From positions 2,790,001 through 2,854,000 of the forward strand of contig NZ_CP029481.1 of NCBI RefSeq assembly GCF_003151255.1: a stretch of DNA of 64,000 nt, read 5' to 3'. Both the position numbers and the translations under genes were made by a program. The number at the start of each line of letters is the position of its first letter. Within the stretch, counting starts at the first letter, position 1. The notes below the pieces were generated by a model. It searched no databases. It was not told the DNA's origin and saw nothing but the letters and a program-made list of their open reading frames with translations. Source of the stretch: Microvirga sp. 17 mud 1-3 (GTDB lineage Bacteria > Pseudomonadota > Alphaproteobacteria > Rhizobiales > Beijerinckiaceae). This document shows positions 42,131-58,292 of this stretch, piece after piece.

Positions 42131-43213
42131 TCAAGGAACCAGCGCGTTCGCCTCGATGGTCCGCTCCACGATATGCGGCTGCGGGCGCGTGAACTCGGCG
42201 ATGTACGGGCGCAGATCCTCGTAGCGGTCCATGCGCCGGACGATCTTGGAATCGATCCGGTTGTAGAGCTCGGCGACGCTCACGGCGCGGCGCTTGCGCC
42301 CCTTCCCGTCCATAAACAGACCGGCATTGGCCTTGGCGGCCCGGGGGAAGAGCTTCGCGGCCCTGGTATTCGGGTCCTTGTCGAGCATCTCCAGGAAGCG
42401 CACGGCGCTGCCTGCGCCCAGGAAGTGGGCGAGATAGAGCTCGGCCTCCGCCAGCTCGCGCTCTCCCTGCTGGCGCAGGGCATATTCCACGTCCTTGATC
42501 AGCTCCCCGGCCATGAGGGCCGAAAAGTAAGGATCGCAGCGCAGGCTCAGGATCCAGGCCTTGTCCTTGTCATCGACGACCGGCTCCCCATCGACCATCC
42601 GGATCGCCTTGGCGGCGGCCGCGAAGCCGTAATCGGCCGCATGGGAATAGACGGTTTCGAGCCAGGTCCGGTCGATGAACTGGAAGAGGCCCTGGGCCGA
42701 GGAGGTCGGCGCCTTGGCGTCCGGCGAGAGGCTCGATTCCACATCCGCCAGGGTCATCATGTAGACCGGGTCGACGCCCGTCACATGGGCGGCCTTCAGG
42801 ATGGAATGGACGAGCCAGCGCGGCACGTTGCGGCCGCTGAACGGGATCATCTCGTCCGGATTGCCCGGAGGCTCCGCCATCGTCTCGATCCGCAGGGGCG
42901 GCTCCGAGACCGTGGCGCTCGGGAAGGCCTCCTCGACAATCGAGCGGAAGAGGCCCGGTGCGCTCGCCAATTGAGGCGAGAAGGTGACCGTTTCGGGCAG
43001 GATCGCTTCGGAAGGGACAGAGGGCCGCGCCATCACGGCGCTCGGCAAAGTCGCGACGGCGGCCGGGCCGGCGGTCGGGACCTGAAGGCCGGCGCAGAGG
43101 CCCAGCGCCAGGAGAGCATGAACAGGGCGACGACCCCATCGCCCCTTGGTCTTGGACGCATCTTGCGAAGGATGCGGAGCAGCGCCTTGCGGCGTCCTCA
43201 CATCGGTCGACAT
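42131..43213 (-). CDS. Lytic transglycosylase (SLT domain)
   Basis: A 360-residue exported or membrane-anchored murein-cleaving enzyme. The N-terminal segment HALLALGLCAGLQVPTAGPA (about 32-51) acts as signal anchor or signal peptide. The SLT domain (about 130-300) has the catalytic Glu in MMTLADVESSLSPDAKAPTS followed by SSAQGLFQFIDRTW, and LAHFLGAGSAVRFLEML matches the GAG-type segment of phage-like and rhizobial transglycosylases. Family members cut the glycan strand with 1,6-anhydro-MurNAc formation. It lies downstream of the cNMP/ABC-like genes on the same strand but with 160 nt between, so it probably has its own promoter. Confidence 0.88.
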   Translation of the reverse strand: MSTDVRTPQGAAPHPSQDASKTKGRWGRRPVHALLALGLCAGLQVPTAGPAAVATLPSAVMARPSVPSEAILPETVTFSPQLASAPGLFRSIVEEAFPSATVSEPPLRIETMAEPPGNPDEMIPFSGRNVPRWLVHSILKAAHVTGVDPVYMMTLADVESSLSPDAKAPTSSAQGLFQFIDRTWLETVYSHAADYGFAAAAKAIRMVDGEPVVDDKDKAWILSLRCDPYFSALMAGELIKDVEYALRQQGERELAEAELYLAHFLGAGSAVRFLEMLDKDPNTRAAKLFPRAAKANAGLFMDGKGRKRRAVSVAELYNRIDSKIVRRMDRYEDLRPYIAEFTRPQPHIVERTIEANALVP

Positions 43214-43373: not shown

Positions 43374-43820
43374 TCAGGAACCCGATTGCGCCACGAGCTG
43401 GGCATTCGTCTGTTCGAGGCGCTTTGCCAGCTCCCGCATGACCGCCAGGGACATCTGCGGGAACTGGGCCAGAAGCTCCAGGAAGACCCTCTTGTCGATC
43501 CTCAGGGCCGTGGTGGGCTCCGCCGCCATGATGGAGGCGGAGCGCGGCGTGTCGGAGAGAATGCCCATCTCGCCCACGAGCGCGTTTTCGCCCAGCTCGG
43601 CCACCTTGATCTCCCCATGGGGCGTATCGAGGAGTACCTGGGCTCTCCCGTCGAGGATCACGAAGGCGGCGTCCGCCGCGTCTCCCTGGGAAAAGAACCG
43701 TTGCCCGCCGGCGAACTGGACCCGCTCGCTGGTGAAGGCGAGAAGCTTCAATCGGGCCGGATCGATGTCGCGGAACATCGGCACCTGGCGCAGTGATTGA
43801 ACCTCGGCCTCAAGGGTCAT
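43374..43820 (-). CDS. Stand-alone cyclic-nucleotide-binding domain protein
   Basis: A 148-residue protein made of one CAP-type cNMP-binding domain (about 15-135) with no DNA-binding HTH. The phosphate-binding cassette is GEMGILSDTPRSASI, which keeps the Glu and Arg that contact cyclic nucleotide, so binding is plausible. Its start overlaps the stop of the 905-residue ABC-like gene (ATGA, 43817-43820), so the two proteins are made together. A regulatory subunit for that membrane protein is the natural inference. The nucleotide could be cAMP or cGMP. Confidence 0.88.
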   Translation of the reverse strand: MTLEAEVQSLRQVPMFRDIDPARLKLLAFTSERVQFAGGQRFFSQGDAADAAFVILDGRAQVLLDTPHGEIKVAELGENALVGEMGILSDTPRSASIMAAEPTTALRIDKRVFLELLAQFPQMSLAVMRELAKRLEQTNAQLVAQSGS

Positions 43821-46534
43821 GCAACCTCTCCTGCTATGGGTTGGGAGTCCGGCGCGGGCGTCTCGGCCCGCCTTGCCGGAGCATTCCGGGTATCTGTGAG
43901 GATCTGCCCGTCGCGGAAGCGCACGAGCACGTCGAAACCGTTCGCCTGCCGGTCGTTGGGGAGCACCATGAACAGGCTCCGCCCTTCCGTCAGTTCGAAA
44001 AGGACCTCGATCATCTTTTGGCTGCGCGCCTCGTCGAAGGCCGAGAGCGCACCGTCGAGCACCAGGATGTCCGGGCGCTTCACCAGGCAGCGGGCAAGGT
44101 TGATGCAGGCCCGCTCCTGCGGCGAGAGAAGGCGGCCCGCGGTGCCGACCTGATGGTCGAGCCCGATCCGCTCGATGTCTTCAAGCAGGTCCATGTCCCG
44201 TACGACGGTGGATACCGCCTCGGCCACCCGCGCCTGCGCATTGGCGACCCGGTAGCTGATGCGGCCGAAAAGAAGGTTATCCCTCAATGGGGCAGCCGCA
44301 CAGATCTTTTCCGGATCATAGAACTCGACACCGTCCGCATCGGCCGTCTGAAGCATCTCGCGCACGAGCCGGCGCGCATGGACGAGCAGAAGCTTCAGAT
44401 GATCGTCGAGGAGCCCCAAACGGTGACGGGGCTCGATATAGGCCAGGGGCAGGGACAGGAGCTTGGCCCGCTCCTCCTTGGAAAGGGCCGCGTTGGAACG
44501 GGAATGCCTGCGCAGGATCGCCTCGAACTCCGTCAGCTCCTCGGCGCCGATGAATGAAAACTGCTCGAACAGGGAATGGCCCGGCGGCAGCCCTTCGAAA
44601 ATCTCCGTCATGGTCTCGGCGATCTGCAGGCCCATATGGACGAGATCGTCGCTGAGTCCAGCGCGCTCGATGGCGTCCCGGAAATCGGGATTGTAGGCCA
44701 GGTTGCGCCCCCGGAATTCGTCCGTCTTCGGAACACCGAACAGGAGGTTCTCGGCGATGGTGGTCTGGTCGTTGTAGCTCTCGGGATCGAACGGATCCAC
44801 GAGCCCGGCCATCCCCTCGGCCTGGAAGGTCTCGCGCAGGCGGTGGCGTGCCTCGACGATTCGCTCCGCCAGCTCGGGCTCCTGATCGGGGACGATCCAT
44901 CCGGCAAGACCGAAGAGATAGATCTCCCCGCCCATCCCGAGCTTGTTGAGAATCTTCACGAGGATCCGGTCGAGATCCTCCTCGTCCTCGGCACCGACCT
45001 GCGCGTAGTCGATCCACTGGTCCCCGATGCTCTCAACAGGGTTCCCGGTCCGCTGAGCCTCCAGGATCCGGCGGTTTTCCTCGCGCGTCGATGTCCCGTC
45101 CTGCCCGAGCGGGCGATGGCGCAGGCCGTAGATCAGGTTCTCGCGGATCGTGCCGGGAAACAGGATCGGATCGATGCCCGCATAGGCCAGTCGCCGGCCG
45201 CTCACCGTGAGGGGAATCTGATGAAGCTCGCGCTCGCCGATGCGGATCTGCCCGCTGAAACCGTTGGTCCGCCGCGCCAGGATACGCGCCAGGATGCTGG
45301 CGGCGCCTCCACCGTTCGACACGATGGCGACCTTTGCGGGCAGCATGATCTCGAAGGATGCGCCATCGAGGACCATGCCCCCATGGGCATCGCTGACGCG
45401 CAGCTCTTCGGCCTGGAGAAGCCCCGTGAGAGCCTCGTCCCGCTCCTTTCCGTCCCGCGCCGTCAGAAGCGGGAGAAGCCGCTCCTCGGCAAAATGCTCG
45501 GTAACCTGGTCGTATTTGACCTGAACGTCGAGGCGCTGCTGGTCCCAGTCGATCAGCTCCTTGAGGGGCGGCGGCAGCTCCCGGTAGGCCCCGATGACGG
45601 CGACGAGCTGGCCGATGTCCAGGGTGCCGCGGATCGCGAAATAGCCGCCCACCGCATAGAAGAAGAACGGCGTCAGCTGGGACAGGAAATTGTTGAGGAA
45701 TTTGACGACGAATTTGCGATTGTAGATCTGCACGCGCAGGTCGAAGAGACGGAAGAGCCGATGGCCGATCTCGGCCTTCTCCCAGCCATAGGCATTGTGC
45801 ACATGCACGGCCTCGATGCCGTCGAGCACCTCGCCGATGCGCCCGGCGAGCTCCCGCGAGGCGAGCTGGCGCTGTTTGCCCAGCCGCAGCAATTCCCGGC
45901 GCAGATAGGGGATGACCGTGAACTGGATCCCCACCACCGCAATCGCCATGAGGCCGAGCCAAAGGTTCTGCACGATGATGAAGAACAGGGCTGTGAGGGC
46001 CTGCGTGCCGAGGAAGATCGGCGTGATGAACGCATCCCCGATGAAGCCGCCGACCGGCTCCACCTCGTCCTTGATGATGGTCGCGGTCTCGGACGACTTA
46101 ACCGTACGTAAGGCCTCGGGCGTGAAGCGCAGCACCATGGTGAACAGGTCGAAGCGCATCCGCCGGAGCATGCGCTCGCCCAGCACCCCCTTGGCGACGT
46201 TGATCCAGTATTTGAACGCGCCGTTGATGATGACGAAGAACAGGAACAGGCAGGAGAGCCCGAGCAGGAGCCCTATGCGGCCGACTTCGAATCCGTCGAA
46301 GATGTGGAAGGACTGGCCCCCGAGCCAGTTGGGCAGGTGCAGGTCGAGCTTGAGAAAGGGCGCGGTCGCCTGTCCCTCCCGGAAGGCTTCGCCCTGGATG
46401 GCCTGATTCACGATCTGGCGGGGCAGGTCCAGAGAGGCGAAGTAAAAGGGCTGGGAAGCGAGCACGACGGCGCACACGATCAGCTGATCGCGCTTCGAGT
46501 GCGTCCAGATATATCGAAACAGGCTCTTTTCCAT
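43817..46534 (-). CDS. ABC-exporter-like protein with degenerate ATPase domain
   Basis: A 905-residue inner-membrane protein. Residues 1-340 form an ABC-exporter-type membrane domain (hydrophobic segments near 18-35, 86-104, 173-190, 192-210 and 286-300). The NBD-like part (365-885) is abnormal. The Walker A position reads AIVSNGGGAAS (403-413) without Lys; the Q-loop Gln is replaced (YAGIDPILF, 451-459); signature is LLSPQERA (802-809); Walker B is DILVLDGA (822-829) with Gly where the catalytic Glu should be; the switch His is missing (LPND, 858-861). About 330 extra residues separate Walker A and signature, and an ENLLFG-like x-loop occurs three times (465-470, 595-600, 752-757). ATP hydrolysis is doubtful. 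The cNMP gene overlaps its stop and the glycosyltransferase operon is divergent. Confidence 0.85.
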   Translation of the reverse strand: MEKSLFRYIWTHSKRDQLIVCAVVLASQPFYFASLDLPRQIVNQAIQGEAFREGQATAPFLKLDLHLPNWLGGQSFHIFDGFEVGRIGLLLGLSCLFLFFVIINGAFKYWINVAKGVLGERMLRRMRFDLFTMVLRFTPEALRTVKSSETATIIKDEVEPVGGFIGDAFITPIFLGTQALTALFFIIVQNLWLGLMAIAVVGIQFTVIPYLRRELLRLGKQRQLASRELAGRIGEVLDGIEAVHVHNAYGWEKAEIGHRLFRLFDLRVQIYNRKFVVKFLNNFLSQLTPFFFYAVGGYFAIRGTLDIGQLVAVIGAYRELPPPLKELIDWDQQRLDVQVKYDQVTEHFAEERLLPLLTARDGKERDEALTGLLQAEELRVSDAHGGMVLDGASFEIMLPAKVAIVSNGGGAASILARILARRTNGFSGQIRIGERELHQIPLTVSGRRLAYAGIDPILFPGTIRENLIYGLRHRPLGQDGTSTREENRRILEAQRTGNPVESIGDQWIDYAQVGAEDEEDLDRILVKILNKLGMGGEIYLFGLAGWIVPDQEPELAERIVEARHRLRETFQAEGMAGLVDPFDPESYNDQTTIAENLLFGVPKTDEFRGRNLAYNPDFRDAIERAGLSDDLVHMGLQIAETMTEIFEGLPPGHSLFEQFSFIGAEELTEFEAILRRHSRSNAALSKEERAKLLSLPLAYIEPRHRLGLLDDHLKLLLVHARRLVREMLQTADADGVEFYDPEKICAAAPLRDNLLFGRISYRVANAQARVAEAVSTVVRDMDLLEDIERIGLDHQVGTAGRLLSPQERACINLARCLVKRPDILVLDGALSAFDEARSQKMIEVLFELTEGRSLFMVLPNDRQANGFDVLVRFRDGQILTDTRNAPARRAETPAPDSQPIAGEVA

Positions 46535-46659: not shown

Positions 46660-46720
46660 TAACGTTCGGTGGGCGCCGGCAAAGAATGCCTCTGTGTAAA
46701 AACCTTGTCAGGACTTGAGG

Positions 46721-47965
46721 ATGGATCACCTAACGCAGCTTCCGTCGGGGCGCTCCGACGGCGCCCGGGTCCTGATCTACAGCCATGACACGTTCGGCCT
46801 GGGGCACCTGCGCCGCTCCCGGGCCATCGCCAACGCCATCTCGCAGGAGCAGGCCGATTGCTCCATCGTGATCATCTCGGGTTCGCCCGTGATCGGCAAT
46901 TTCGAGTTCGGCAGCGGGGTGGACTACATCCGCATTCCGGGCGTGACCAAGCTTCCGGACGGGGATTACCGTAGCCTCAACCTCAATCTGGACCTCGACG
47001 AGGCGGTCGGCCTGCGCCAGGCCCTCATTCTCCAGGCTGCCCAGTCGTTCAGGCCCGACGTGTTCATCGTCGACAAGGAGCCCGCAGGCTTCCGGGGCGA
47101 GGTGGTTCCCGCGCTCGATTATTTGGAAAGCCAGGGCTGCCGACGGGTGCTCGGCATTCGCGACGTCATGGACGAGCCGGCACTGCTGGTGCCCGAATGG
47201 GAGCGAAAGGGCGCGAAGGACATCCTGATCCGCGCCTATGACGAGATCTGGGTCTACGGGCTCGAGGACGTCTACCGCCCGCTCGCGGCCCTCGACCTTC
47301 CGGCCGAGGTAGAGAAGCGCATTACCTATACGGGCTACCTGCGCCGGGAAGTGCCGCCGACCCCTTCCCTCACCCGCTACCCCAAGCTCACCAAGCAGCC
47401 CTTCATTCTGGTGACCACCGGCGGGGGCGGCGACGGGGACGACCTGATCGACTGGGTGATCTCGGCCTACGAGCATGACGAAGACATCGCCATGCCGGCC
47501 CTCATCGTGTTCGGCCCCTTCGTGAACCGGGACATGCGCCGCTCCTTCATGGAGCGGATCGCCCGGCATCCGAAGCTCGACGCCATCTCGTTCGACACCA
47601 AGATTGAGCACCTGATGCAGAAGGCAGCCGCCATCGTCGCGATGGGCGGCTACAACACGTTCTGCGAGATCCTGTCCTTCGACAAGCGGGCCCTGATCGT
47701 GCCGCGCACCCGGCCGCGGCTGGAGCAGCACATCCGGGCCGTGGCGGCGGAGCGCCTGGGGCTGGTTCGGATGCTGAGCGATTACGGAGCGCCGCGCACC
47801 CCTGACCGGATGGCCGAGGCCCTGAAAGGCCTCGCAGACCAGCCGCGACCCTCTGAGGTGGTGATCCCGGGTCTTCTCGAAGGGCTTGACCGGGTCCAGG
47901 AGCGGCTTAAGGCTCTCATCGGGTCCAAGGCTCCCTTCCTCCCCGCCCGGCACGCCGCAGAATAA
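46721..47965 (+). CDS. Predicted glycosyltransferase (COG4671-like, GT-B)
   Basis: A 414-residue cytoplasmic GT-B enzyme related to MurG-like and COG4671 transferases. The N-terminal acceptor-side motif FGLGHLRRSRAIANAIS is followed by a linker and a C-terminal nucleotide-sugar domain (FILVTTGGGGDGDDLIDWVI, then AAAIVAMGGYNTFCEILSFD and ALIVPRTRPRLEQHIRAVAA). The ATG at 46721 (MDHLTQLPSG) is chosen; AGGAC lies about 6 nt upstream. It is the first gene of a four-gene operon. Donor and acceptor sugars cannot be read from the sequence. Confidence 0.87.
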   Translation: MDHLTQLPSGRSDGARVLIYSHDTFGLGHLRRSRAIANAISQEQADCSIVIISGSPVIGNFEFGSGVDYIRIPGVTKLPDGDYRSLNLNLDLDEAVGLRQALILQAAQSFRPDVFIVDKEPAGFRGEVVPALDYLESQGCRRVLGIRDVMDEPALLVPEWERKGAKDILIRAYDEIWVYGLEDVYRPLAALDLPAEVEKRITYTGYLRREVPPTPSLTRYPKLTKQPFILVTTGGGGDGDDLIDWVISAYEHDEDIAMPALIVFGPFVNRDMRRSFMERIARHPKLDAISFDTKIEHLMQKAAAIVAMGGYNTFCEILSFDKRALIVPRTRPRLEQHIRAVAAERLGLVRMLSDYGAPRTPDRMAEALKGLADQPRPSEVVIPGLLEGLDRVQERLKALIGSKAPFLPARHAAE

Positions 47966-47976
47966 TATCGACAAGG

Positions 47977-49248
47977 ATGCCATCCGCTTCTTCCCCGCAG
48001 CGCATCGCGATTGCCGTCAAAGGCTATCCGCGCCTGTCCGAAACCTTTATCGCCCAGGAGATCCTCGCCCTCGAGAACCGGGGTCTCTCCCTGGAGATCT
48101 GGTCCCTCCGGCACCCGACCGAGAAGGCCGTTCACCCAATGAACCGCCAGATCAGGGCGCGGGTCTCCTATCTGCCGGAATATCTCTACGAGGAGCCCCT
48201 GCGCGTGCTGAAGGGGGCGGCCTGGAGCATCCGGCAGCCCGGCTTCAGGGCCTTGATGCGCGCCTTCTTCGCCGACCTGAAGCGGGACTTCACGGCCAAT
48301 CGGGTGCGCCGCCTGGGCCAGGCCTTCGTCATGGGGCGCGAACTATCGCCGGACGTGAGGCACCTGCACGTCCACTACCTGCACACTCCCGCCTCCGTGG
48401 TGCGCTACGCGGCCCTCCTGACCGGCCGCACCTGGACCTTCTCGGCCCATGCCAAGGATATCTGGACCACGCCCGACTGGGAGAAGAGCGAGAAACTGGC
48501 CGAGGCCCTCTGGGGCGTGACCTGCACGGCCGAAGGCGCCCGGCACCTCCAGGCCCTCGCGCCGCGTCCGGATCGGGTGTCCCTCGTCTATCACGGGCTC
48601 GACCTGTCCCGCTTCCCTCCGCCTCCGGAGGCGCGCCCTGCCCGGGATGGGACGGATCCGGCCGATCCGGTCCGCATCGTCTCGGTGGGCCGGGCCGTGG
48701 CCAAGAAGGGCTTCGGCGACCTCCTGAAGGCCCTGGCGGCCTTGCCGCCGGATCTGCACTGGCGCTTCGCCCATGTGGGCGGCGGCGAGCTTCTGGAGAG
48801 CCTGAAGACCCAGGCGAAGCAGAACGGAATCGCCGACAAGGTCGCGTTTCTGGGTCCGAAGGCGCAGCCGGACGTGGTCGCTCTCCTGCGGGAGGCGGAC
48901 CTCTTCGTCCTCCCATCCAAGAAGGCGCGGTCCGGTGACCAGGACGGCCTGCCGAACGTCCTCATGGAGGCGGCCGCGCAGAGCCTCGCCATCGTGGCGA
49001 GCGATTTCGCCGGCATTCCCGAATTCATCCGCAGTGGCCAGGAGGGTGAGCTTGTCCCGCCGGGCGAGTGGGAAGCGCTCTCCAATGCCCTGAACCTGCT
49101 GGCCCGGGAGCCGGAACGGCGGCGCGCCTATGGGGCAGCGGCCTATGAGCGCCTGCGGCGAGAGTTCTCCATGGAAGGCGGCATCGACGTGCTGGAGGAG
49201 CGCTTCCGCGCCCTTAACGAGCGTGCGCCCGAGAGCGCGGCTGCGTGA
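47977..49248 (+). CDS. Glycosyltransferase family 4 (operon gene 2)
   Basis: A 423-residue GT4 enzyme. The N-terminal half has YPRLSETFIAQEILALENRG and LHVHYLHTPASVVRYAALLTG with FSAHAKDIWTTP; the donor half has VSVGRAVAKKGFGDLLKALA, the AHVGGGELLE loop, and the GT4 E-x7-E type segment PNVLMEAAAQSLAIVASDFA. Such proteins build exopolysaccharide or lipopolysaccharide chains. It begins 12 nt after the previous gene and overlaps the next by 4 nt (GTGA). Confidence 0.9.
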   Translation: MPSASSPQRIAIAVKGYPRLSETFIAQEILALENRGLSLEIWSLRHPTEKAVHPMNRQIRARVSYLPEYLYEEPLRVLKGAAWSIRQPGFRALMRAFFADLKRDFTANRVRRLGQAFVMGRELSPDVRHLHVHYLHTPASVVRYAALLTGRTWTFSAHAKDIWTTPDWEKSEKLAEALWGVTCTAEGARHLQALAPRPDRVSLVYHGLDLSRFPPPPEARPARDGTDPADPVRIVSVGRAVAKKGFGDLLKALAALPPDLHWRFAHVGGGELLESLKTQAKQNGIADKVAFLGPKAQPDVVALLREADLFVLPSKKARSGDQDGLPNVLMEAAAQSLAIVASDFAGIPEFIRSGQEGELVPPGEWEALSNALNLLAREPERRRAYGAAAYERLRREFSMEGGIDVLEERFRALNERAPESAAA

Positions 49249-50384
49249 CCCGGCTTCCCGTCGCCTTCTACGCCCCCCTGAAAAGCCCGAACCACCCTTC
49301 CCCGTCGGGCGACCGGGCCATGGCCCGGCTTCTCCTGAAAGCCCTGGAGGAAGCCGGATTCCGGCCGGACCTCGCCAGCGAGCTGCGGACCCTCGACCGG
49401 GACGGGAATGCCGGGCCTCAAGAAGAGATCAGGACCCGCTCCGACGAGGAGGCGATCGCCCTGATCGCCGCCTATGAGCGCCTGCCCCCGTCCGAACGGC
49501 CGCGCCTGTGGTTCACCTATCACGTCTATTACAAGGCGCCGGACTGGATCGGCCCCCGGGTGGCCGAGGCCCTGGGCATTCCCTATGTGGTCGCCGAGGG
49601 CTCGCGGGCGCAGAAACGCGCGGACGGCCCATGGGCCATCGGCCATCGCGGCGCCGAGGAGGCGCTCGACCACGCCGGGATCGTGTTCGCCATGACGGAC
49701 CACGACAGGAAAGCGCTCGAGGCTGCCCGGCCCGCCCATCAGGCCATCGTCGACCTGCCTCCGTTCCTGGACATCGCCGAATGGGGCCCGCTTTCGTCTC
49801 GCCCCGCCCGACAGGACCCGCGGCTCCTCGCGGTCGCGATGATGCGCCCAGGCGACAAGCTCGCGTCCTACCGGATCCTGGCCGAGGCCCTGAGCCGCCT
49901 CGGGGACAGACTCTGGAGTCTCGATATCGTGGGCGACGGCGAGGCACGGGAGGAGATCGAGGCGCTGTTTGCCCCCTCCGGCGGACGGGTCCGGTTCCAC
50001 GGTCAGGTCGAGGACAGGGAACAGCTGCGCGCTCTCTACGAAGAGGCCGGTCTGTTCGTGTGGCCGGCCGTGAACGAGGCTTACGGGATGGTCTTCCTGG
50101 AAGCGCAGCTTTTCGGATGCCCGGTCGTCGCGGGTGCCTATGGGGGCGTCGCAGGCGTCGTCCGGGACGGGACGAGTGGTCTTCTCGTGTCGCCCGGCGA
50201 CCCGGACGCCTTTGCGCGAGGGATCGCAACCCTCCTCGACGACCCGGATGAGCGCAGTCGCATGGGAGAGGCGGCCCGCCTGTTCGTGACGACGGAGCGC
50301 AGCCTCGCACATGCTGCCACCCGCCTGCGCGACACCCTGATGCCGCTGGTCGAGACCGGGAGCCCGTCGTCATGCGGGTCCTGA
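49245..50384 (+). CDS. Glycosyltransferase family 4 (operon gene 3)
   Basis: A 379-residue GT4 enzyme starting at GTG 49245, overlapping the previous stop. AFYAPLKSPNHPSPSGDRAM at the N-terminus is a common GT4 opening, and VWPAVNEAYGMVFLEAQLFG with VVAGAYGGVAGVVRDGTSGL is the donor-binding E-x7-E region. It overlaps the next gene by 13 nt. The four tightly packed genes suggest a pathway that needs fixed stoichiometry. Confidence 0.9.
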   Translation: MTRLPVAFYAPLKSPNHPSPSGDRAMARLLLKALEEAGFRPDLASELRTLDRDGNAGPQEEIRTRSDEEAIALIAAYERLPPSERPRLWFTYHVYYKAPDWIGPRVAEALGIPYVVAEGSRAQKRADGPWAIGHRGAEEALDHAGIVFAMTDHDRKALEAARPAHQAIVDLPPFLDIAEWGPLSSRPARQDPRLLAVAMMRPGDKLASYRILAEALSRLGDRLWSLDIVGDGEAREEIEALFAPSGGRVRFHGQVEDREQLRALYEEAGLFVWPAVNEAYGMVFLEAQLFGCPVVAGAYGGVAGVVRDGTSGLLVSPGDPDAFARGIATLLDDPDERSRMGEAARLFVTTERSLAHAATRLRDTLMPLVETGSPSSCGS

Positions 50385-52297
50385 TCGCCGTAACCCATCT
50401 CCTCGGGGGAGGACATCTCACCCGCGCCGCAGCTCTGGCCCGGGCCTTCGCGGAGGCCGGCCACGACACCACCCTCGTGTCGGGCGGAAGCCCTATCCCC
50501 CTGCCGTCCCTCGGACAGGTCCGCCTCATTCAGCTGCCTCCGGTCCGAACCGTTGGGACCGATTTCAGGACCCTTCTCGACGAGGCCGGAGCGCCCGCCT
50601 CTGCCGAAAGGCTGGCGGACCGACGCGACCTCCTCCTGCGGACCCTCGATGCGGTACGCCCGCAGGTCGTGATCACAGAGCTTTTCCCCTTCGGCCGCAG
50701 GGTGTTGGCGGCGGAATTCGAAGCTCTGCTGGAGGCCGCACAGGACCTCGCGCCGCGCCCTCTCATCGTGGCGTCGATCCGCGACATCCTCGTGGCCCCA
50801 TCGAAACCGGAGCGGCTCGACGAGACCCGTCGACGTCTGGCGCGCTTCTACGACACCGTCCTCATGCACGGAGACCCGGCCCTCGTTCCCCTGGAAGCAT
50901 CCTGGCCCGTGGACGATGCGCTTCGGGACATGCTGCACGTCACCGGCTACGTGGACGAAAGCCCCGAGACCGTCGCCTCCGGCAGCCGGAGCGGCATCGT
51001 CGTATCCGGTGGGTCGAGCGCCACGAGCCTGCCCGTCTACCGCGCAGCCCTGGAGGCGGCGCGGCTCATCACCGACCGTCCCTGGCACATCCTGGTCGGC
51101 CGCGGCGTCGCGGAGGCCGATATCGAGTCGCTGGCGCGGGAAGCGCCGCCCCACGTGAAGGTGGAGCGGACGCGGCCCGATTTCCGTGCCCTGCTCGGCA
51201 CGGCCGAATTGTCGGTGAGCCAGGCCGGCTACAATACCTGCGTCGATCTCCTGCGCGCCGGGGTACGGGCGGTCCTGGTGCCCTTCGAGGCCGGCCGGGA
51301 GACCGAACAGCGCCTTCGGGCCGAACGCCTCCGGAGCCTCGGCATTGCCGAAATCGTGCCCGAGGCGGACCTTTCAGGCGAGACTCTGGCCGAAGCCATC
51401 CGCCGCCGCCTCGCGGCGCCCCCGTCGGGGCCACTTCCCGTTTCCCTCGACGGGGCACGGCGCAGCGTCGCCATCGTGGAGGGCCTCGTCCCGTCCGCGC
51501 CCGCCCTGCACGGAAAGCTCGACTGGTCACCCCTCGACAAGGCCCTGGCACGCTCAAGGGACCAGGGCCTGCCCATCCGCTTTTGGTGGCGGGACGATGA
51601 CGCTGTAGCGGCGACACCCCAGCTCGACAGGCTGCTGGAGCTGGCGAACCGCTACGAGGCCGGAATCGCCCTTGCGTGCATTCCGGCCCATCTCGAGCCG
51701 TCGCTTACCGAACGCCTCCGCGGCGAGGACCGAGCCTTCGCCCTGGTGCACGGCTTCAGCCATACCAATCATGCGCCCCCGGGCGACAAGAAAGCCGAGT
51801 TCGGGCCGCATCGGCCCGTCCAGACCATGGCACAGGAAGCCGCGGACGCTCTGGCGCGGGCGCGCCCCCAGCTCGGAGAGCGGCTTTTGCCGGTCTTCGT
51901 GCCGCCCTGGAACCGGATCGCGCCCGCGCTGGTCCCCGCCCTGCCCCGCCTGGGCTACCGCGCTCTCTCGACCTTCCGGGACCGGAGAGCAGCCCGGACA
52001 GCCGAGGGCCTGGTGATCGTCAACACCCACGTGGACCCTATCGACTGGCACGGCACCCGCAGCCTTTTGGATCCCGACGGGCTGGTCCGCAATCTCGCGG
52101 ATGCAGTGGAGCGGCGGCTTTCCGGGGACGCCGATGCCCTGGAGCCGGTCGGGTTTCTCACCCATCACCTCATCCACGACGAGAAGCTCTGGACATTTTG
52201 CGAGAACCTGTTGGTTTATCTGTCACGAAACAATGCAATTTTCGCATCCATCGGCGGGTTACCATATGACAAAATCGGGATCACTGCCGACCCGTAA
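50372..52297 (+). CDS. Glycosyltransferase-deacetylase fusion (GT28-like + DUF2334-like)
   Basis: A 641-residue two-domain protein. Residues about 1-375 are a second COG4671/MurG-like GT-B enzyme (LLGGGHLTRAAALARAFAEA; VVSGGSSATSLPVYRAALEA; SVSQAGYNTCVDLLRAGVRA). Residues about 395-625 resemble a NodB/DUF2334-type polysaccharide deacetylase: FWWRDDDAVAATPQ (metal Asp), HGFSHTNHAPPGDKKAEFG (His pair and EF), PPWNR and a late GFLTHHLIHD. The fusion could glycosylate and de-N- or de-O-acetylate the same chain. The start overlaps the previous gene by 13 nt. The peptide-transporter operon starts 37 nt later on the same strand. Confidence 0.82.
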   Translation: MRVLIAVTHLLGGGHLTRAAALARAFAEAGHDTTLVSGGSPIPLPSLGQVRLIQLPPVRTVGTDFRTLLDEAGAPASAERLADRRDLLLRTLDAVRPQVVITELFPFGRRVLAAEFEALLEAAQDLAPRPLIVASIRDILVAPSKPERLDETRRRLARFYDTVLMHGDPALVPLEASWPVDDALRDMLHVTGYVDESPETVASGSRSGIVVSGGSSATSLPVYRAALEAARLITDRPWHILVGRGVAEADIESLAREAPPHVKVERTRPDFRALLGTAELSVSQAGYNTCVDLLRAGVRAVLVPFEAGRETEQRLRAERLRSLGIAEIVPEADLSGETLAEAIRRRLAAPPSGPLPVSLDGARRSVAIVEGLVPSAPALHGKLDWSPLDKALARSRDQGLPIRFWWRDDDAVAATPQLDRLLELANRYEAGIALACIPAHLEPSLTERLRGEDRAFALVHGFSHTNHAPPGDKKAEFGPHRPVQTMAQEAADALARARPQLGERLLPVFVPPWNRIAPALVPALPRLGYRALSTFRDRRAARTAEGLVIVNTHVDPIDWHGTRSLLDPDGLVRNLADAVERRLSGDADALEPVGFLTHHLIHDEKLWTFCENLLVYLSRNNAIFASIGGLPYDKIGITADP

Positions 52298-52334: not shown

Positions 52335-54200
52335 ATGGACAAGCCGCTCCTGTCGATCCGCGACCTTGCGGTCGACTTCGAGACCGAAACCGGACGGTTT
52401 CGGGCCGTCGATGGCTTGTCCTTCGACATTCCCAAAGGGAAGACCGTGGCCCTTGTCGGGGAATCCGGCTCCGGCAAGTCGGTGACGGCCCAGGCAATCC
52501 TCCAGATCCTTCCGAAGAAGGCCCGCATCAGCGCAGGCTCGATCCTGTTCGACGATCCGGCCCGGGATCTGCCGCTCGACATCGCAGGCCTAGATCCGGC
52601 GGGCTCAGGGATGCGCGAATTGCGCGGCGGCCGCATTTCCATGATCTTCCAGGAGCCCATGACGTCCCTGTCGCCGCTCCACACCATCGGCGACCAGATT
52701 TCGGAAGCGCTCGTCATCCACGCGAAGGTCTCCCAGGCGGAAGCCCTGGAGCGCACCAAGGACGTGTTGGCCCGCGTCGGCTTTCCCGATCCGCGACGGG
52801 CCCTGCGGACCTATCCGTTCGAATTGTCCGGCGGCCTGCGGCAGCGCGCGATGATCGCCATGGCGCTCATCACCCATCCGGCCCTTCTGATCGCCGACGA
52901 GCCCACGACCGCGCTTGACGTGACGACCCAGGCGCAGATTCTCGACCTCATCAAGGAGCTGCAGGTCGAGACCGGCATGTCGGTCCTGCTCATCACGCAC
53001 GACCTCGGGGTCGTCGCCAACGTGGCTGACGAAGTGGTCGTGATGTATCGCGGCAAGGTCATGGAAGCCGGTTCGCGGGAGGCGATCTTCCGCCAGCCGG
53101 AGCATCCCTATCTCCAGGCGCTCATGCGCGCGGTCCCACGCTTCGCCATGGGCGAGGACGAGCGGCTGACGCCGATCCGTGAAGTGAAGAGCGCCACGCT
53201 CGCCGAGGCCCATAAGCCCGAGCGCGTGGAGCCGAAGGGCCCCATCCTCAAGGCCGTGGACCTCACGAAGACCTTCACCCTGCGGTCCGGCTGGTTCTCG
53301 GGCAAGCTCCGCACGATCCACGCGGTCAACGGAGTGTCCCTTGCGCTGCCGGCCGGCGAGACCCTGGGGCTCGTGGGCGAATCCGGCTGCGGCAAGACCA
53401 CGGTCTCCAAGATCATCATGCGGGCGATGGAGCCGAATTCCGGCACGGTGCTCTTCGACGACGGCACCGGGCCGCGCAATGTGCACGAGCTCGACGGCGA
53501 AGCCCTGAAGGATTACCGGCGCAGCGTCCAGTTCATCTTCCAGGACCCGTTCTCATCCCTCAACCCGCGGATGACCGTCTACGAGATCCTGACCGAACCG
53601 CTGATCATCCACGGCATCGGCGACGAGGACATGCGCTACCAGCGCGCCAAGCAGCTCCTCGACATGGTGGGCCTGGACCGTCGCGCCCTGCGGCGTTACC
53701 CGCATTCCTTCTCGGGCGGTCAGCGCCAGAGGCTTGGCATCGCGCGGGCGCTCGCGCTGGAGCCGCGGGTACTGATCTGCGACGAGCCGGTCTCGGCCCT
53801 CGACGTCTCGGTGCAGGCGCAGGTGCTCAACCTTCTCAAGGACCTGCAATCGGCCCTCGGCCTCTCCTACCTGTTCGTGTCGCACAATCTCGCGGTGGTG
53901 GATTACATCGCGGACACCATCGCGGTGATGTGCCGGGGCTATATCGTCGAGCAGGCACCCAAGACGTCCCTGTTCCGCAATCCGGTGCATCCCTACACTC
54001 AGGCGCTTCTCGCCGCCGTGCCGGATCCCGATATCGACCGGCCGCTCGACTTCGCGAAGCTGCGCGCAGGCCGCTTCTCTCATCCGGGCGAATGGCCGGA
54101 GCCTTTCCGGCTCAAGGACGGCGAGACCGGAATCATGAAGGAAATCGAGCCGGGCCACCTTGTGCGGCTGGGTCGGCTCCCCTTGGAGGAGGCCGCATGA
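52335..54200 (+). CDS. Peptide/opine-type ABC transporter, fused dual ATPase
   Basis: A 621-residue protein with two complete ABC ATPase domains in tandem (DppD-DppF/YejF type). The first has Walker A GESGSGKS at about 42-49, signature LSGGLRQR and Walker [17 protein letters not shown]; the second has [22 protein letters not shown] and [17 protein letters not shown]. Oligopeptide C-terminal extensions follow each domain ([31 protein letters not shown]). It energises import of small peptides or similar solutes. It overlaps the binding-protein gene by 4 nt (ATGA). Confidence 0.95.
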
Positions 54201-56116
54201 TGTCGATGCTTCCGCGCCTGAAGGCCGGCCTGCTGGCCCTTCTGCTCGCCTGCCCGGCCCTGCCCGCCCTCGCGGCCGATTATGCCGAGCAGCCCTATTT
54301 CGCCGAGAAGGTCGCCCGGAAGGAGCTGCCGCCGGTCTCGGAGCGGGTGCCCCAGACGCCTTACGTCTCCGAAGAGGCTAGCGGCCAGTACGGCGGCGAC
54401 ATCGTCACGCTGGTGGCCCGCGCCCGCGACATCCGCTACATCAGCACCTACGCCTATTCCCGTCTGGTCGGCTACGACCGGAACCTGGAGCTGCGGCCCG
54501 ACATCCTCGAGAAGTACGAGGATGAGGACGACCGGGTCTTCACCTTCACGATCCGGGAGGGCCACCGCTGGTCCGACGGGCATCCGTTCACGGCAGAGGA
54601 TTTCCGGTACTATTGGGAAGACGTTGCCCTGAACAAGGACCTGTCGCCCGCCGGAGTGCCCGAATTCATGATGGTGGGAGGCAAGCCGGCCAAGTTCGAG
54701 GTGCTCGACGAGCGCACGGTGCGCTACACCTTCGACAAGCCCAATCCGCGCTTCCTGCCCCACCTCGCCGGCCCGGTCGATGCGGCCATCTATCGCCCGG
54801 CCCATTACCTGAAGCAGTACCACGCGAAATATGCCGACAAGGCGAAGCTCGACGAGGCCGCCAAGGCCCAGAAGCTGAAATCCTGGGCGGCCCTGCACAA
54901 CCGCCTCGACGACCTGAAGGAGCACACCAACCCGGACGAGCCTGTGCTCCAGGCCTGGCGCGTCACCAACCGGGCGCCCGCCAACCGCTTCGTCTTCGAG
55001 CGCAATCCCTTCTACCACCGGGTCGACGCCCATGGGCATCAGCTGCCCTATATCGACCGGATCATCATGGACGTGTCCTCGGGCGGGCTGTTCGCCGCCA
55101 AGGCCAATGCGGGAGAGGTGGACCTCCTCTTCCGCGGCATTTCCATGAGCGACATTCCGATCCTGAAGCAGGGCGAAAAGGCCCATGACTACACCACGCT
55201 CCTGTGGCCCTATGCCCGCGGCTCCGAGCTTGCGCTCTATCCCGATCTCAATGCGAAGGATCCGGTCTGGCGCGCGCTCAACCGGGATGTGCGCTACCGC
55301 CGGGCCCTGTCGCTCGCCATCGACCGCAAGACCCTGAACAACGTGTTCCTCTTCGGCCTCGGGATCGAGGGCAACAACACGGTCATGGAACAGAGTCCCC
55401 TTTCGTCCCCGGGCCTGCGCACCCTCAACGCCACCTACGACCCGGCCGAGGCCTCGCGGCTCCTCGACGAGATCGGCCTCTCCAAGCGCAATGCCGCCGG
55501 CACCCGGCTGCTGCCGGACGGGCGCGAGTTGGAAATCATCGTCGAGACGGATGGAGAAGCCAGCCACATCGTCGATGCTCTGACCCTCATCGGCGAGTTC
55601 TGGCGCGAGATCGGCGTCAGGCTCTTCGTGAAGCCCCAGGACCGGACGGTGCTGCGCAACCGGGCCTTCGCGGGGCTGACCAACATGGTGGCAGGCCAGG
55701 GTTTCGACAACGCCGTCCCGACGGCCATCATGCCGCCCAGCGAGTACGCCCCCATGCGCCAGGACAATTACGCCTGGCCGCAATGGGGCCAGTATGTGGA
55801 AACCAAGGGTAAGAACGGCGAGCCCGTGGACATTCCCGAGGCGCAGCGCCTTCTCGATCTCTATTCGGTCTGGATGAACACCGCGAACCACAACGTTCAG
55901 CGGGACGTCTGGACCGAGATGCTGCGCAACCACGCCGAGAACCAGTGGTCCATCGGCACGGTGGCGGGCGCCCTGCAGCCCATCGTGGTGCGCAACGGCC
56001 TCAAGGGCCTGCCCGCGAAGGCCCTCTATAGCTGGGAGCCGACGGCGCTGATCGGCATTTACCGGATCGACGAGATGTATTGGTCCAAGGCCGCCCTGAA
56101 AGAGGCCCGCAGATGA
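54197..56116 (+). CDS. ABC transporter substrate-binding protein, family 5, large
   Basis: A 639-residue periplasmic solute-binding protein. The signal peptide (MLPRLKAGLLALLLACPALP, cleavage after PALA near residue 28) is followed by the SBP_bac_5 fold (TFTIREGHRWSDGHPFTAED, YYWEDVALNKDLSP, and VRYRRALSLAIDRKTLN). It is about 100 residues longer than OppA/DppA, like the YejA and AgpA groups, so oligopeptides or oligosaccharides are both possible. The ATG at 54197 follows GGAGGAGG and overlaps the ATPase stop; it overlaps the permease start by ATGA (56113-56116). Confidence 0.93.
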   Translation: MMSMLPRLKAGLLALLLACPALPALAADYAEQPYFAEKVARKELPPVSERVPQTPYVSEEASGQYGGDIVTLVARARDIRYISTYAYSRLVGYDRNLELRPDILEKYEDEDDRVFTFTIREGHRWSDGHPFTAEDFRYYWEDVALNKDLSPAGVPEFMMVGGKPAKFEVLDERTVRYTFDKPNPRFLPHLAGPVDAAIYRPAHYLKQYHAKYADKAKLDEAAKAQKLKSWAALHNRLDDLKEHTNPDEPVLQAWRVTNRAPANRFVFERNPFYHRVDAHGHQLPYIDRIIMDVSSGGLFAAKANAGEVDLLFRGISMSDIPILKQGEKAHDYTTLLWPYARGSELALYPDLNAKDPVWRALNRDVRYRRALSLAIDRKTLNNVFLFGLGIEGNNTVMEQSPLSSPGLRTLNATYDPAEASRLLDEIGLSKRNAAGTRLLPDGRELEIIVETDGEASHIVDALTLIGEFWREIGVRLFVKPQDRTVLRNRAFAGLTNMVAGQGFDNAVPTAIMPPSEYAPMRQDNYAWPQWGQYVETKGKNGEPVDIPEAQRLLDLYSVWMNTANHNVQRDVWTEMLRNHAENQWSIGTVAGALQPIVVRNGLKGLPAKALYSWEPTALIGIYRIDEMYWSKAALKEARR

Positions 56117-57132
56117 TCCTTTTCCTGTTGCGTCGTTGCGTCACGATGATCGTGACGCTCCTGATCATTTCGGCTCTCGTCTTTCTCATCATCAAGCTCC
56201 CGCCGGGAGACTTCCTGACCAACCAGATCGCCGAGCTGCGTGCGCAGGGCGAGGCGGACGCCGCCGCGAAGGCGGAGTTCCTCATCAAGCAATACGGGCT
56301 CGACAAGCCTGTTTGGCAGCAATACCTCGTCTGGCTCGGCGCCATGCCCGGGCAGAACGGATTCTCGGGCCTGCTGCAGGGCGACTGGGGCTGGTCCTTC
56401 GAATATGACCGCCCGGTCACAGAGGTGGTGGGCGACGCGCTCTGGCTGACCCTCGTCGTCAACATCGCGGTGGTGATCTTCATCCACCTGATCTCGATCC
56501 CGATCGCCATCTATTCGGCGACGCGCCAGTACTCGGTCGGGGACTATATCGCCACCTTCATCGGCTATATCGGCTTGGCCACGCCCAGCTTTCTCCTGGC
56601 GCTCATCCTGCTCTACTACTTCAACCGATGGTTCGGGGTCTCGATCGGCGGTCTCTACGACGCGCGCTTTGCGGGCCAGCCCTGGACCTGGGCCAAGATC
56701 CAGTCGCTCCTCGCCCACCTGGTCGTGCCCACCCTGGTGATCGGTCTCGCGGGCACAGCCGCGATGATCCGGCGTATGCGCGCCAACCTGCTCGACGAAC
56801 TTGGAAAGCAATATTACGTGACCGCGAAGGCGAAGGGGCTCGCGCCCAGCCGCGCCCTGCTGAAATATCCGTTCCGCATGTCGCTGAACCCCTTCATCGC
56901 CGATATCGGCAACCTGCTGCCGCATCTGGTGTCCGGCTCGGTGCTGGTTTCTCTCGTGCTCAGCCTCCCGACCGTCGGGCCGATCCTGCTCAGCGCCCTG
57001 AAAAGCCAGGACCAGTTCCTCGCCGGCTTCATCCTGATGTTCGTGGCGGTGCTCACGGTGCTCGGCATGCTGGTCTCCGACCTCCTCCTGGCCTGGCTTG
57101 ACCCGCGCATCCGGGTGGGAGGCGGCCGATGA
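56113..57132 (+). CDS. ABC transporter permease 1 (DppB/OppB-like)
   Basis: A 339-residue inner-membrane permease. The N-terminal helix (CVTMIVTLLIISALVFLIIK) is followed by LPPGDFLTNQ, an OppB-type opening, and the cytoplasmic EAA-like loop (YYVTAKAKGLAPSRALLKYPFR) that couples to the ATPase. Several further helices follow. The ATG at 56113 overlaps the previous stop by ATGA, and the gene ends in an ATGA overlap with permease 2. Confidence 0.94.
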   Translation: MILFLLRRCVTMIVTLLIISALVFLIIKLPPGDFLTNQIAELRAQGEADAAAKAEFLIKQYGLDKPVWQQYLVWLGAMPGQNGFSGLLQGDWGWSFEYDRPVTEVVGDALWLTLVVNIAVVIFIHLISIPIAIYSATRQYSVGDYIATFIGYIGLATPSFLLALILLYYFNRWFGVSIGGLYDARFAGQPWTWAKIQSLLAHLVVPTLVIGLAGTAAMIRRMRANLLDELGKQYYVTAKAKGLAPSRALLKYPFRMSLNPFIADIGNLLPHLVSGSVLVSLVLSLPTVGPILLSALKSQDQFLAGFILMFVAVLTVLGMLVSDLLLAWLDPRIRVGGGR

Positions 57133-58292
57133 CCGAGGTCGTTCCGCTCAAGGGTCACTACGTCAACAAGGAGCCGTTCGACCCCGGCGCCACCGAGCCA
57201 ACCGGGACCGAGAGCGAGAGCTTCTACCGCGCCTCCTCCTGGCGCCTGATGTGGTGGAAGTTTCGCCGCCACAAGGTGGCCGTGGCGGCCGCCGCCATCC
57301 TGCTGGCCTTCTACCTGCTGATCCCCTTCGTCGAGGTGATCGCCCCCTACAACCAGACCAAGCGCAACGGGGACTTCATCTACGCGCCGCCCCAGTCCGT
57401 GCATCTGATGCATGAGGGCCGGTTCGTGGGCCCCTTCGTGTACCCTTACAAGTTCTCCTTCGACCTGGAGAGCTTCCGCCGGGTCTATACGACCGATACG
57501 TCGAAGCCCGAACCCATCCGCTTCTTCTGCCGGGGCGACTATTACGAGTTCTGGGGGCTCGTGACCTGGAACGTCCATCTGTTCTGCCCGCCCGAGAACG
57601 GGACCCTCTTCCTCTTCGGCACCGACAGGCTCGGTCGCGACATGTTCTCACGCATCATCTATGGGGCGCGGATCTCGCTCACCATCGGTATCGTGGGCAT
57701 CGCCGTGTCGTTCACGCTCGGCCTCCTGTTCGGCGGGCTCGCGGGCTATCTCGGAGGCTGGGTGGACCATGTGATCCAGCGTCTGATCGAGATCCTGCGC
57801 TCGCTCCCGGAGCTTCCCCTGTGGCTTGCCCTGTCGGCCGCACTACCGGCCAACTGGAGCCCCATCCTGGTCTTCTTCGGCATCACCATCATCCTCGGCC
57901 TGCTCGACTGGCCGGGTCTTGCCCGGGCCGTGCGCTCGAAGCTGCTCTCCCTGCGTGAGGAGGATTTCGTGCGCGCCGCGGAGCTGATGGGCGCCTCGAA
58001 GGGGCGCATCATCGCGCGCCACCTCATCCCCAACTTCATGAGCCACCTCATCGCGTCCGCAACCCTTGCGATCCCGTCCATGATCCTCGGCGAGACTGCC
58101 CTGTCGTTCCTGGGGCTCGGCCTGCGGCCGCCGGTGACGAGTTGGGGCGTGCTGCTCAACGAGGCCCAGAATCTCGCGGCCGTCCAGCTTCATCCCTGGC
58201 TTCTCTTCCCCATCGTGCCGGTGGTGATCGTCGTCCTGGCGTTCAACTTCATGGGCGACGGCCTGCGCGACGCAGCGGACCCCTATCACTAG
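57129..58292 (+). CDS. ABC transporter permease 2 (DppC/OppC-like)
   Basis: A 387-residue permease. One N-terminal helix (VAVAAAAILLAFYLLIPFVE) is followed by an unusually large periplasmic loop (about 75-160, with IRFFCRGDYYEFWGLVTWNV), then the permease core (FGTDRLGRDMFSRIIYGARI) and the EAA loop DFVRAAELMGASKGRIIARH. The large loop matches the long binding protein and marks the YejE/AgpC-like branch. It is the last gene of the operon. Confidence 0.93.
   Translation: MTEVVPLKGHYVNKEPFDPGATEPTGTESESFYRASSWRLMWWKFRRHKVAVAAAAILLAFYLLIPFVEVIAPYNQTKRNGDFIYAPPQSVHLMHEGRFVGPFVYPYKFSFDLESFRRVYTTDTSKPEPIRFFCRGDYYEFWGLVTWNVHLFCPPENGTLFLFGTDRLGRDMFSRIIYGARISLTIGIVGIAVSFTLGLLFGGLAGYLGGWVDHVIQRLIEILRSLPELPLWLALSAALPANWSPILVFFGITIILGLLDWPGLARAVRSKLLSLREEDFVRAAELMGASKGRIIARHLIPNFMSHLIASATLAIPSMILGETALSFLGLGLRPPVTSWGVLLNEAQNLAAVQLHPWLLFPIVPVVIVVLAFNFMGDGLRDAADPYH

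Follow-up and report, generated by a model that had tools for sequence, protein, structure and literature searches.

The peptide transporters SbmA and BacA have an exporter-type transmembrane domain (TMD) that works without an ATP-binding cassette (ABC) ATPase, and they possess no nucleotide-binding domain (NBD) at all. In CFTR and SUR a regulated channel or regulator has arisen from the exporter fold, with a degenerate site; ATP is bound and used at one site at least, and there is no separate subunit binding cyclic nucleotide monophosphates (cNMPs). HetC is described in the excerpted text of PMC10986499 as a combination of a cNMP domain, a C39 peptidase and an exporter with an essential ATPase residue; the ligand bound by HetC was ppGpp, and no protection was seen with cAMP. 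Here we describe a gene pair found in a stretch of 64,000 nucleotides (the window) of Microvirga sp. 17 mud 1-3 (contig NZ_CP029481.1, positions 2,790,001 to 2,854,000). The first gene encodes an ABC-exporter-like protein of 905 amino acids (aa) with a degenerate NBD (the pseudo-ABC protein), the second a stand-alone cNMP-binding protein of 148 aa. A check of the open reading frames (ORFs) confirmed both genes of the initial annotation, their strands and their ATGA overlap (43817-43820). The window genome (G000) measures 4.40 Mb, and the closest named homologues are those of Microvirga.

The non-canonical NBD is a property of the whole family and not the result of local decay. The Walker A Lys, the Q-loop Gln, the catalytic Glu and the switch His had been reported as replaced, and we found each of these changes (Ala412, Ile454, Gly828 and Pro859, respectively); the signature reads LSPQE and the Walker B position pair DG. 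The same sites were compared in 104 family members, non-redundant at 80% identity and reduced from 228; 32 of them came from a Microvirga-rich database list, thus the window's type is over-represented. The Walker A Lys was kept in 36 members, the Ser/Thr in 39, the Q-loop Gln in 15, the two signature Gly residues in 7 and 3, the signature Gln in 83, the Walker B Asp in 53, the catalytic Glu in 25, the D-loop Asp in 83 and the switch His in 12. The full set of Lys, Ser/Thr, Asp and Glu did not occur in any of the 104, whereas all of 28 ordinary exporters kept all nine sites checked; these controls (28 of 30 loci fetched from 142 alphaproteobacterial genomes, with a long enough ORF) were chosen by similarity to one canonical exporter, which favours intact NBDs. 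The degenerate state is thus conserved across the homologues. Homologues with an intact Lys and catalytic Glu, which the initial annotation would have taken as a sign of simple decay in the window, do exist: both residues are present in 20 of the 104 members, but in none of these 20 together with Ser/Thr and Asp.

Two patterns of catalytic loss recur. In 44 of the 104 members an Asp or Glu at the Walker A Ser/Thr position goes with an Asn or Ser at the Walker B Asp position; it looks as if the acidic charge had been shifted across the site, from Walker B to Walker A (e.g. L009-L037). The window's type, with Ser/Thr and Asp and without Lys and Glu, accounts for 39 members, and the remaining 21 are mixed. 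In a tree of the TMDs, whose midpoint root is for drawing only and whose long branches make deep placements unsure, the first pattern is found on both sides of the root, thus it probably arose early; the window's pattern has a nested position. The window clade is nearly uniform in the state A-S/D-G (Walker A and Walker B positions); the member from Kiloniella majae has the state K-E/N-E, with Lys and Glu kept.

The TMD is of the exporter type by its Pfam match (PF00664, ABC_membrane, E 3.7e-15, 56.8 bits against a cut-off of 28). Hydropathy marked segments only at about residues 17-37, 81-114 and 168-212, the expectation for an exporter being six helices, and the score of the protein against the MsbA equivalog TIGR02203 (118 bits) was below the curated cut-off of 602. 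For 28 family members mean pairwise identity reached 53.7% over the TMD; the corresponding values were 43.1% for the NBD core and 44.7% for the insert described below. In the 28 ordinary exporters the order was reversed (TMD 26.0%, NBD 57.9%), although this control mixes paralogues, which lowers its TMD figure; the higher conservation of the TMD than of the NBD within the pseudo-ABC family stands without the control. Such a reversal would be expected if the NBD were no longer conserved as a motor, but taken alone it would not prove that the use of ATP has been lost.

The NBD also carries a large insert, flanked on both sides by NBD-related sequence. While the N-terminal part matches canonical NBD columns 1-95, residues 748-885 align to columns 87-211 (hhalign, 99.7%); the two ranges overlap, so that 272 extra residues are left between two copies of an ENLxxG motif, and a third copy lies inside the insert. 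From the Walker A Lys position to the signature Ser there are 392 residues in the window protein, but only 99 in an ordinary exporter encoded by this genome. Spacing and profile alignment (residues 476-747) put the insert at about 270-290 aa, hence the initial figure of about 330 residues was too high. The threefold occurrence of an x-loop-like motif stood in so far as there are three copies, the Asn of each being invariant across the family (104 of 104), but the motif is not the x-loop. The x-loop proper (TEVGERG) sits directly before the signature; ENLxxG follows the Q-loop, where the helical subdomain begins. In profile alignments copies 2 and 3 were homologous over 50 columns (98.9%, E 1.8e-17), and copy 1 matched them more weakly (62.7% and 89.4%). 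Because of the invariant Asn in all three copies and the homology of copies 2 and 3, the triple motif goes beyond chance. The insert profile matched no PDB sequence at E<=1, and the inserts of 28 members gave no convincing Pfam family (two families, each in one member, at E about 0.07). Among the best 120 of 172 protein matches to the profile many were named ABC ATP-binding proteins, several were partial or from short contigs, and no clear free-standing use of the insert domain was seen.

The small partner protein had been described as a stand-alone CAP-type domain, and PF00027 is indeed its sole Pfam match; no C-terminal helix-turn-helix or DNA-binding domain was detected (Pfam, E<=1), thus the layout is not that of CRP/FNR. 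It contains the phosphate-binding cassette pattern GE..PR[ST]A, and its best-scoring solved relatives include domains of cGMP- and cAMP-dependent kinases and a bacterial cyclic nucleotide-binding protein. The pocket was compared at 110 loci, i.e. the window, 29 loci of the class-wide survey and 80 named loci (the best 80 of at least 556 confirmed): Gly83 was kept in 110, Glu84 in 105, Arg93 in 107, Ser/Thr94 in 105 and Ala95 in 107. At all 110 loci the cNMP gene is either fused to the ABC gene or follows it on the same strand, starting at most 685 bases after the ABC match ends. A larger set, taken with longer flanks, covers 45 loci of 43 other genomes and largely overlaps the 29 class-wide loci; here the cNMP gene was present at 42. 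Of the other three, L193 is cut by a contig end, L181 (G087) has its cNMP gene on another contig, beside the glycosyltransferase operon, and L183 (G108) is treated below. Fusion of the cNMP domain to the C-terminus of the ABC protein was found in four cases (L178 in G040, L184 in G105, L190 in G022, and L091), two of which (L036, the same protein as L178, and L091) fall in well-separated clades of the TMD tree. Of the 142 genomes, 41 have both the ABC gene and a cNMP match (E<=1e-20); G022 (fused and diverged), G071 (contig end) and G108 have the ABC gene without a cNMP match, and G009 and G025 the reverse. The gene pair is thus conserved across homologues, as is the triple motif.

Co-translation of the pair had been proposed from the overlapping stop and start codons. 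The ATGA is there in the window, but a 4-base overlap is not general in the family: it occurs in most Microvirga loci and in Chelatococcus, Bosea, Ancylobacter and one Xanthobacteraceae metagenome-assembled genome. Outside these taxa the ABC and cNMP genes are often separated by a gap, which reaches 315 bases among the named loci and about 615 bases in the class-wide locus L027.

The pseudo-ABC gene is widespread among Alphaproteobacteria, with a match at E<=1e-60 in 44 of the 142 genomes. A phylum-level sample of 299 genomes yielded 25 with a match at E<=1e-80, the window genome and 24 others of the same family, order or class; in four of the 24 (G178, G288, G296 and G414) only the C-terminal part matches, as in a distant paralogue of the window genome (L038, see below). 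The named loci come from Microvirga, Chelatococcus, Mesorhizobium, Rhizobium, Agrobacterium, Bosea, Ancylobacter, Reyranella, Kiloniella and other taxa. There were also 262 matching plasmid records, 144 of them from Rhizobium and 80 from Sinorhizobium. Most family matches keep a full-length reading frame.

A glycosyltransferase operon divergent from the pair, as initially annotated, starts at 46715. A relative of its first gene, of type GT28, lies near the ABC gene at 71 of the 80 named and 31 of the 45 class-wide loci, and in Rhizobium leguminosarum WSM1325 the importer, three glycosyltransferases, the ABC gene and the cNMP gene stand in this order and all point in the same direction. Among the 142 genomes, which are not fully independent but come nearly all from different families, the ABC gene (E<=1e-60) was found in 44, the GT28 gene (E<=1e-40) in 44 and both in 42 (Fisher p 4e-31); the ABC gene occurred alone in G044 and G071, the GT28 gene alone in G025 and G070, the latter by a weak match. 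Since the two genes can be on different contigs or tens of kb apart (G033, G040, G131, G105), neighbourhood alone does not explain this association. The importer genes that come after the glycosyltransferases also adjoin them in R. leguminosarum, and may be part of the module. The muropeptide importer YejBEF-YepA, treated in the excerpt of PMC9790009, serves as the comparison for these Yej genes; the same excerpt names an ABC exporter, Atu2577, together with glycosyltransferases in an uncharacterised glycan cluster.

Some neighbourhoods contain genes for class III cyclases (neighbour families F19 and F13, assigned by Pfam like F14, DUF3095, and F11, a metallo-beta-lactamase fold). A cyclase scoring at least 40 bits was near the pair at 28 of the 80 named loci (27 of the 61 not titled Microvirga and one of the 19 so titled), and 13 of the 28 adjoin the pair on the same strand, judged by position. 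About 1.9 would be expected in the same 1.10 Mb of flanking DNA, as calculated from 167 PF00211 matches in 18 genomes (about 95 Mb); this background was obtained with a different detector, 17 of the 18 genomes had been picked for a linked cyclase, and common descent connects the loci. In the F19 cyclases an N-terminal part that appears hydrophobic by eye is followed by a 2Fe-2S domain and the cyclase domain. A GDG motif is present in 11 of 12 F19 and 15 of 15 F13 cyclases. The window genome has 11 PF00211 matches, and the ten with listed positions all lie outside the window. DUF3095 genes with a GGDG-like stretch stand beside the cyclases near the pair at 14 of the 80 named loci (L092, L094, L097 and others from Rhizobiaceae and Mesorhizobium).

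Table 1. Coordinates of the gene pair, its sequence features and the divergent operon in the window
Feature	Position in window	Strand	Basis
Pseudo-ABC-exporter, 905 aa	43817..46534	minus	ORF; Pfam PF00664 and weak PF00005; class-wide family
TMD, residues 20-345, most conserved part of the family	45500..46477	minus	PF00664 at 91-314; 53.7% identity
NBD N-terminal part, residues 365-475 (canonical NBD columns 1-95)	45110..45442	minus	hhalign 99.7%
Degenerate Walker A SNGGGAAS, residues 406-413	45296..45319	minus	sequence and family alignment
Motif copy 1 RENLIYG, residues 464-470	45125..45145	minus	Asn 104/104, Gly 89/104
Insert of 272 aa, residues 476-747, no known family	44294..45109	minus	hhalign boundaries
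Motif copy 2 AENLLFG, residues 594-600	44735..44755	minus	Asn and Gly 104/104; repeat of copy 3
Motif copy 3 RDNLLFG, residues 751-757, leading into the normal helical subdomain	44264..44284	minus	Asn and Gly 104/104
Degenerate signature LSPQER, residues 803-808	44111..44128	minus	sequence and family alignment
Degenerate Walker B and D-loop DILVLDGALSAFD, residues 822-834	44033..44071	minus	sequence and family alignment
Stand-alone cNMP-binding protein, 148 aa	43374..43820	minus	PF00027 4.4e-20, only Pfam match at E<=1
Phosphate-binding cassette GEMGILSDTPRSA, residues 83-95 of the 148-aa protein	43536..43574	minus	110-locus alignment
GT28-type glycosyltransferase, first gene of the divergent operon	46715..47965	plus	PF04101
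GT4-type glycosyltransferase	47977..49248	plus	PF00534
GT4-type glycosyltransferase	49245..50384	plus	PF00534
GT28-type glycosyltransferase, C-terminal half without family assignment	50372..52297	plus	PF04101 at 209-347
Yej/Opp-type ABC importer: ATPase, binding protein, two permeases	52335..58292	plus	PF00005, PF00496, PF00528

Directly downstream of the pair is an SLT-type transglycosylase gene (42131-43213, minus strand), and a similar gene (family F10) stands at the same place in 18 of the 19 Microvirga-titled loci. Elsewhere in the window (37999-38984, plus strand) a MeaB/ArgK-like GTPase gene, so labelled by eye, is apparently split into two overlapping ORFs (37999-38451 and 38418-38984).

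We see roughly even chances that the pair constitutes a cyclic-nucleotide-controlled transporter or gate for the product of the glycosyltransferase operon, not powered by canonical ATP hydrolysis. A signal-gated membrane device (a nucleotide-controlled channel, scramblase or polysaccharide-export gate) had been suggested initially, and this idea is favoured by the degeneracy of the NBD, the triple motif, the near-constant and sometimes fused cNMP partner and the co-occurrence with the glycosyltransferases, and by a cyclase neighbourhood that is only partial. That the NBD may be a pseudo-motor is suggested because the canonical Lys, Ser/Thr, Asp and Glu set is absent from all 104 members and intact in the 28 controls, and because the TMD is more conserved than the NBD. 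The TMD, with its ABC-exporter fold and probably as a homodimer, would move or gate an intermediate, a glycan or glycolipid, that the GT28-GT4-GT4-GT28 operon produces. The NBD with its insert, having lost the canonical ATPase site, would serve as a structural or regulatory platform, on which the cNMP-binding protein may dock, bind the cyclic nucleotide and switch the conduit. The cyclic nucleotide would be supplied by a class III cyclase, in some genomes one with the layout of the redox-sensing CyaC. We infer from sequence the absence of ATP hydrolysis, the homodimer, the docking, the gating, the control by cyclic nucleotide and the nature of the substrate. A more specific form of the proposal is possible but rather doubtful, namely that the protein is a cyclic-nucleotide-gated conduit of ABC fold, in which cAMP or cGMP on a detachable subunit, and not ATP hydrolysis, would open the path for the glycan or glycolipid throughout the Alphaproteobacteria, the NBD being a docking platform by way of the 272-aa domain.

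Several observations weigh against a cyclic-nucleotide-controlled gate that does not use ATP. ATP binding is possible in the members that keep the Walker A Lys (36 of 104) or the Glu (25 of 104). One locus (L183, in G108) has the ABC gene without a cNMP match at E<=1e-20, and at two others (L208 and L209, in G025 and G087) the cNMP and GT28 genes diverge from each other directly, without an ABC gene in the middle; G087 carries its ABC gene on another contig, and G025 has no ABC match at E<=1e-60. It must be noted that the synteny counts are inflated by shared ancestry. Among the 19 Microvirga-titled loci, to whose kind the window belongs, 18 have no cyclase near the pair, and in the class-wide set one was found at only 3 of 45 loci (L178, L186 and L189), thus the linkage belongs to a part of the family. 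The cyclases may not all be catalytically competent, a pattern for the first cyclase motif being present in 7 of 12 F19 and in none of the 15 F13 sequences. The ppGpp binding of HetC, as given in the excerpt of PMC10986499, indicates that a cNMP domain linked to an exporter need not bind cAMP.

Foremost among the alternatives is an exporter still driven by ATP whose catalytic (metal) site has been rewired: the acidic residue would have left Walker B for Walker A ([K/R][D/E] with [N/S]E). Hydrolysis would be kept in other clades, those with Lys and Glu, and the window clade would be a later, decayed branch. Such an exporter would agree with the D/E (Walker A) and N/S (Walker B) pairing, which 44 of 104 members show and which is found to either side of the midpoint root in the TMD tree, and with the joint retention of Lys and Glu in 20. 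We consider it unlikely, though, as most members have lost the Q-loop Gln (kept in 15 of 104), the switch His (12) and the signature Gly residues (7 and 3), and the window clade is nearly uniform in the A-S/D-G state. Simple local decay of an ordinary exporter gene could be argued from the window copy, which retains only two (Ser, Asp) of six counted catalytic residues where its best relatives retain three or four. With no canonical site in 104 relatives, full-length frames in most family matches and an invariant motif Asn, we see hardly any chance for it in the window, and as a general explanation decay is refuted by the family survey.

Degenerate halves of heterodimeric exporters are well known, and the pseudo-ABC protein might be such a half, with its canonical half-transporter encoded elsewhere. 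The window genome does contain other exporter-like genes, and one ordinary exporter family, the only one examined, was somewhat commoner in genomes with the pseudo-ABC gene (27 of 44) than in those without (32 of 98; p 0.002). This association is weak beside the 42 of 44 for GT28, and no ABC half-transporter partner recurs among the neighbour families annotated (a part of all families); we find a heterodimer quite improbable. Improbable, too, is a membrane receptor or regulator, whose TMD would sense an intermediate (lipid or glycan) and control the glycosyltransferases together with the cNMP protein. The NBD is not conserved as a motor, and on two contigs the cNMP gene adjoins the glycosyltransferase operon without the ABC gene, as such a regulator would allow. 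The exporter-type TMD is, however, the most conserved part of the protein, as expected for a translocation path, although a receptor could look alike.

Should the pair act as a cyclic-nucleotide-controlled gate, it would represent a widely conserved ABC-fold protein in which the ATP motor has been exchanged for control by a second messenger. Cyclic-nucleotide signalling would then be tied directly to cell-surface glycan traffic and not to transcription, in some genomes with a cyclase of redox-sensing layout. Since catalytic residues have been lost in two different recurrent patterns, the family would offer a natural collection of pseudo-NBDs in which to ask what the ABC fold can do without hydrolysis, and the insert would be a new protein domain of about 270 aa.

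The window genome has two paralogues of the pseudo-ABC protein. One, the distant copy L038:8163-10685 (plus strand; G000:C1 near 4388255-4390669), has the whole architecture in 840 aa, without a Pfam match at E<=0.001; behind it come a gene of metallo-beta-lactamase fold with 43% identity to F11, sugar epimerase genes and a Glycos_transf_4 gene, and no cNMP match was found in 19 kb. The other, L039:7381-8391 (minus strand; G000:C1 near 345404-346177), consists of 336 aa with the TMD only and ends where the NBD would start, near a P-type-ATPase-like and an Hsp20-like ORF (labels given by eye). This TMD-only copy suggests, without proving it, that a TMD of this type can work without an NBD. In Sinorhizobium meliloti 1021 (pSymB 832000-855000, L151) the homologue is in two pieces meeting near residue 139; it is in one piece in several other records of the species. 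The MsbA2 operon of S. meliloti was considered as a counterpart and rejected, the excerpt of PMC3687685 placing its first-gene fragment near 938 kb of pSymB and the homologue lying at 841.7-844.4 kb. SMb20813, called an msbA homologue in the excerpt of PMC10945364, may be the pSymB homologue.

We found no paper on the ABC/cNMP pair in the open-licence literature, which is weak evidence of absence, and the excerpts of PMC6180224 and PMC12239276 contain nothing on it. The redox-sensing adenylate cyclase CyaC of S. meliloti has a layout of membrane part, 2Fe-2S and cyclase in common with F19, and the excerpt of PMC10463352 names as its outputs two transcription factors, Clr and CycR, and no transporter. 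HetC of Nostoc is alike in that a cNMP-type domain is tied to an ABC exporter and needed for HetC function (PMC10986499, excerpt); unlike HetC, the pseudo-ABC protein contains no peptidase domain (Pfam, E<=1) and its NBD is degenerate. Both the TMD and the NBD are related by sequence profile to those of the canonical type IV exporters (MsbA, Sav1866, BmrA, ABCB1/ABCB4), from which the family differs in the lost catalytic residues, the 272-aa insert, the cNMP partner and the reversed conservation. The family cyc_nuc_ocin (TIGR03896), which comprises cNMP proteins beside cyanobacterial bacteriocin exporters, is matched only weakly by the cNMP protein of the window (score 36, cut-off 161). Compared with SbmA and BacA, which dispense with the NBD altogether, the pseudo-ABC protein has retained an elaborated domain derived from it.

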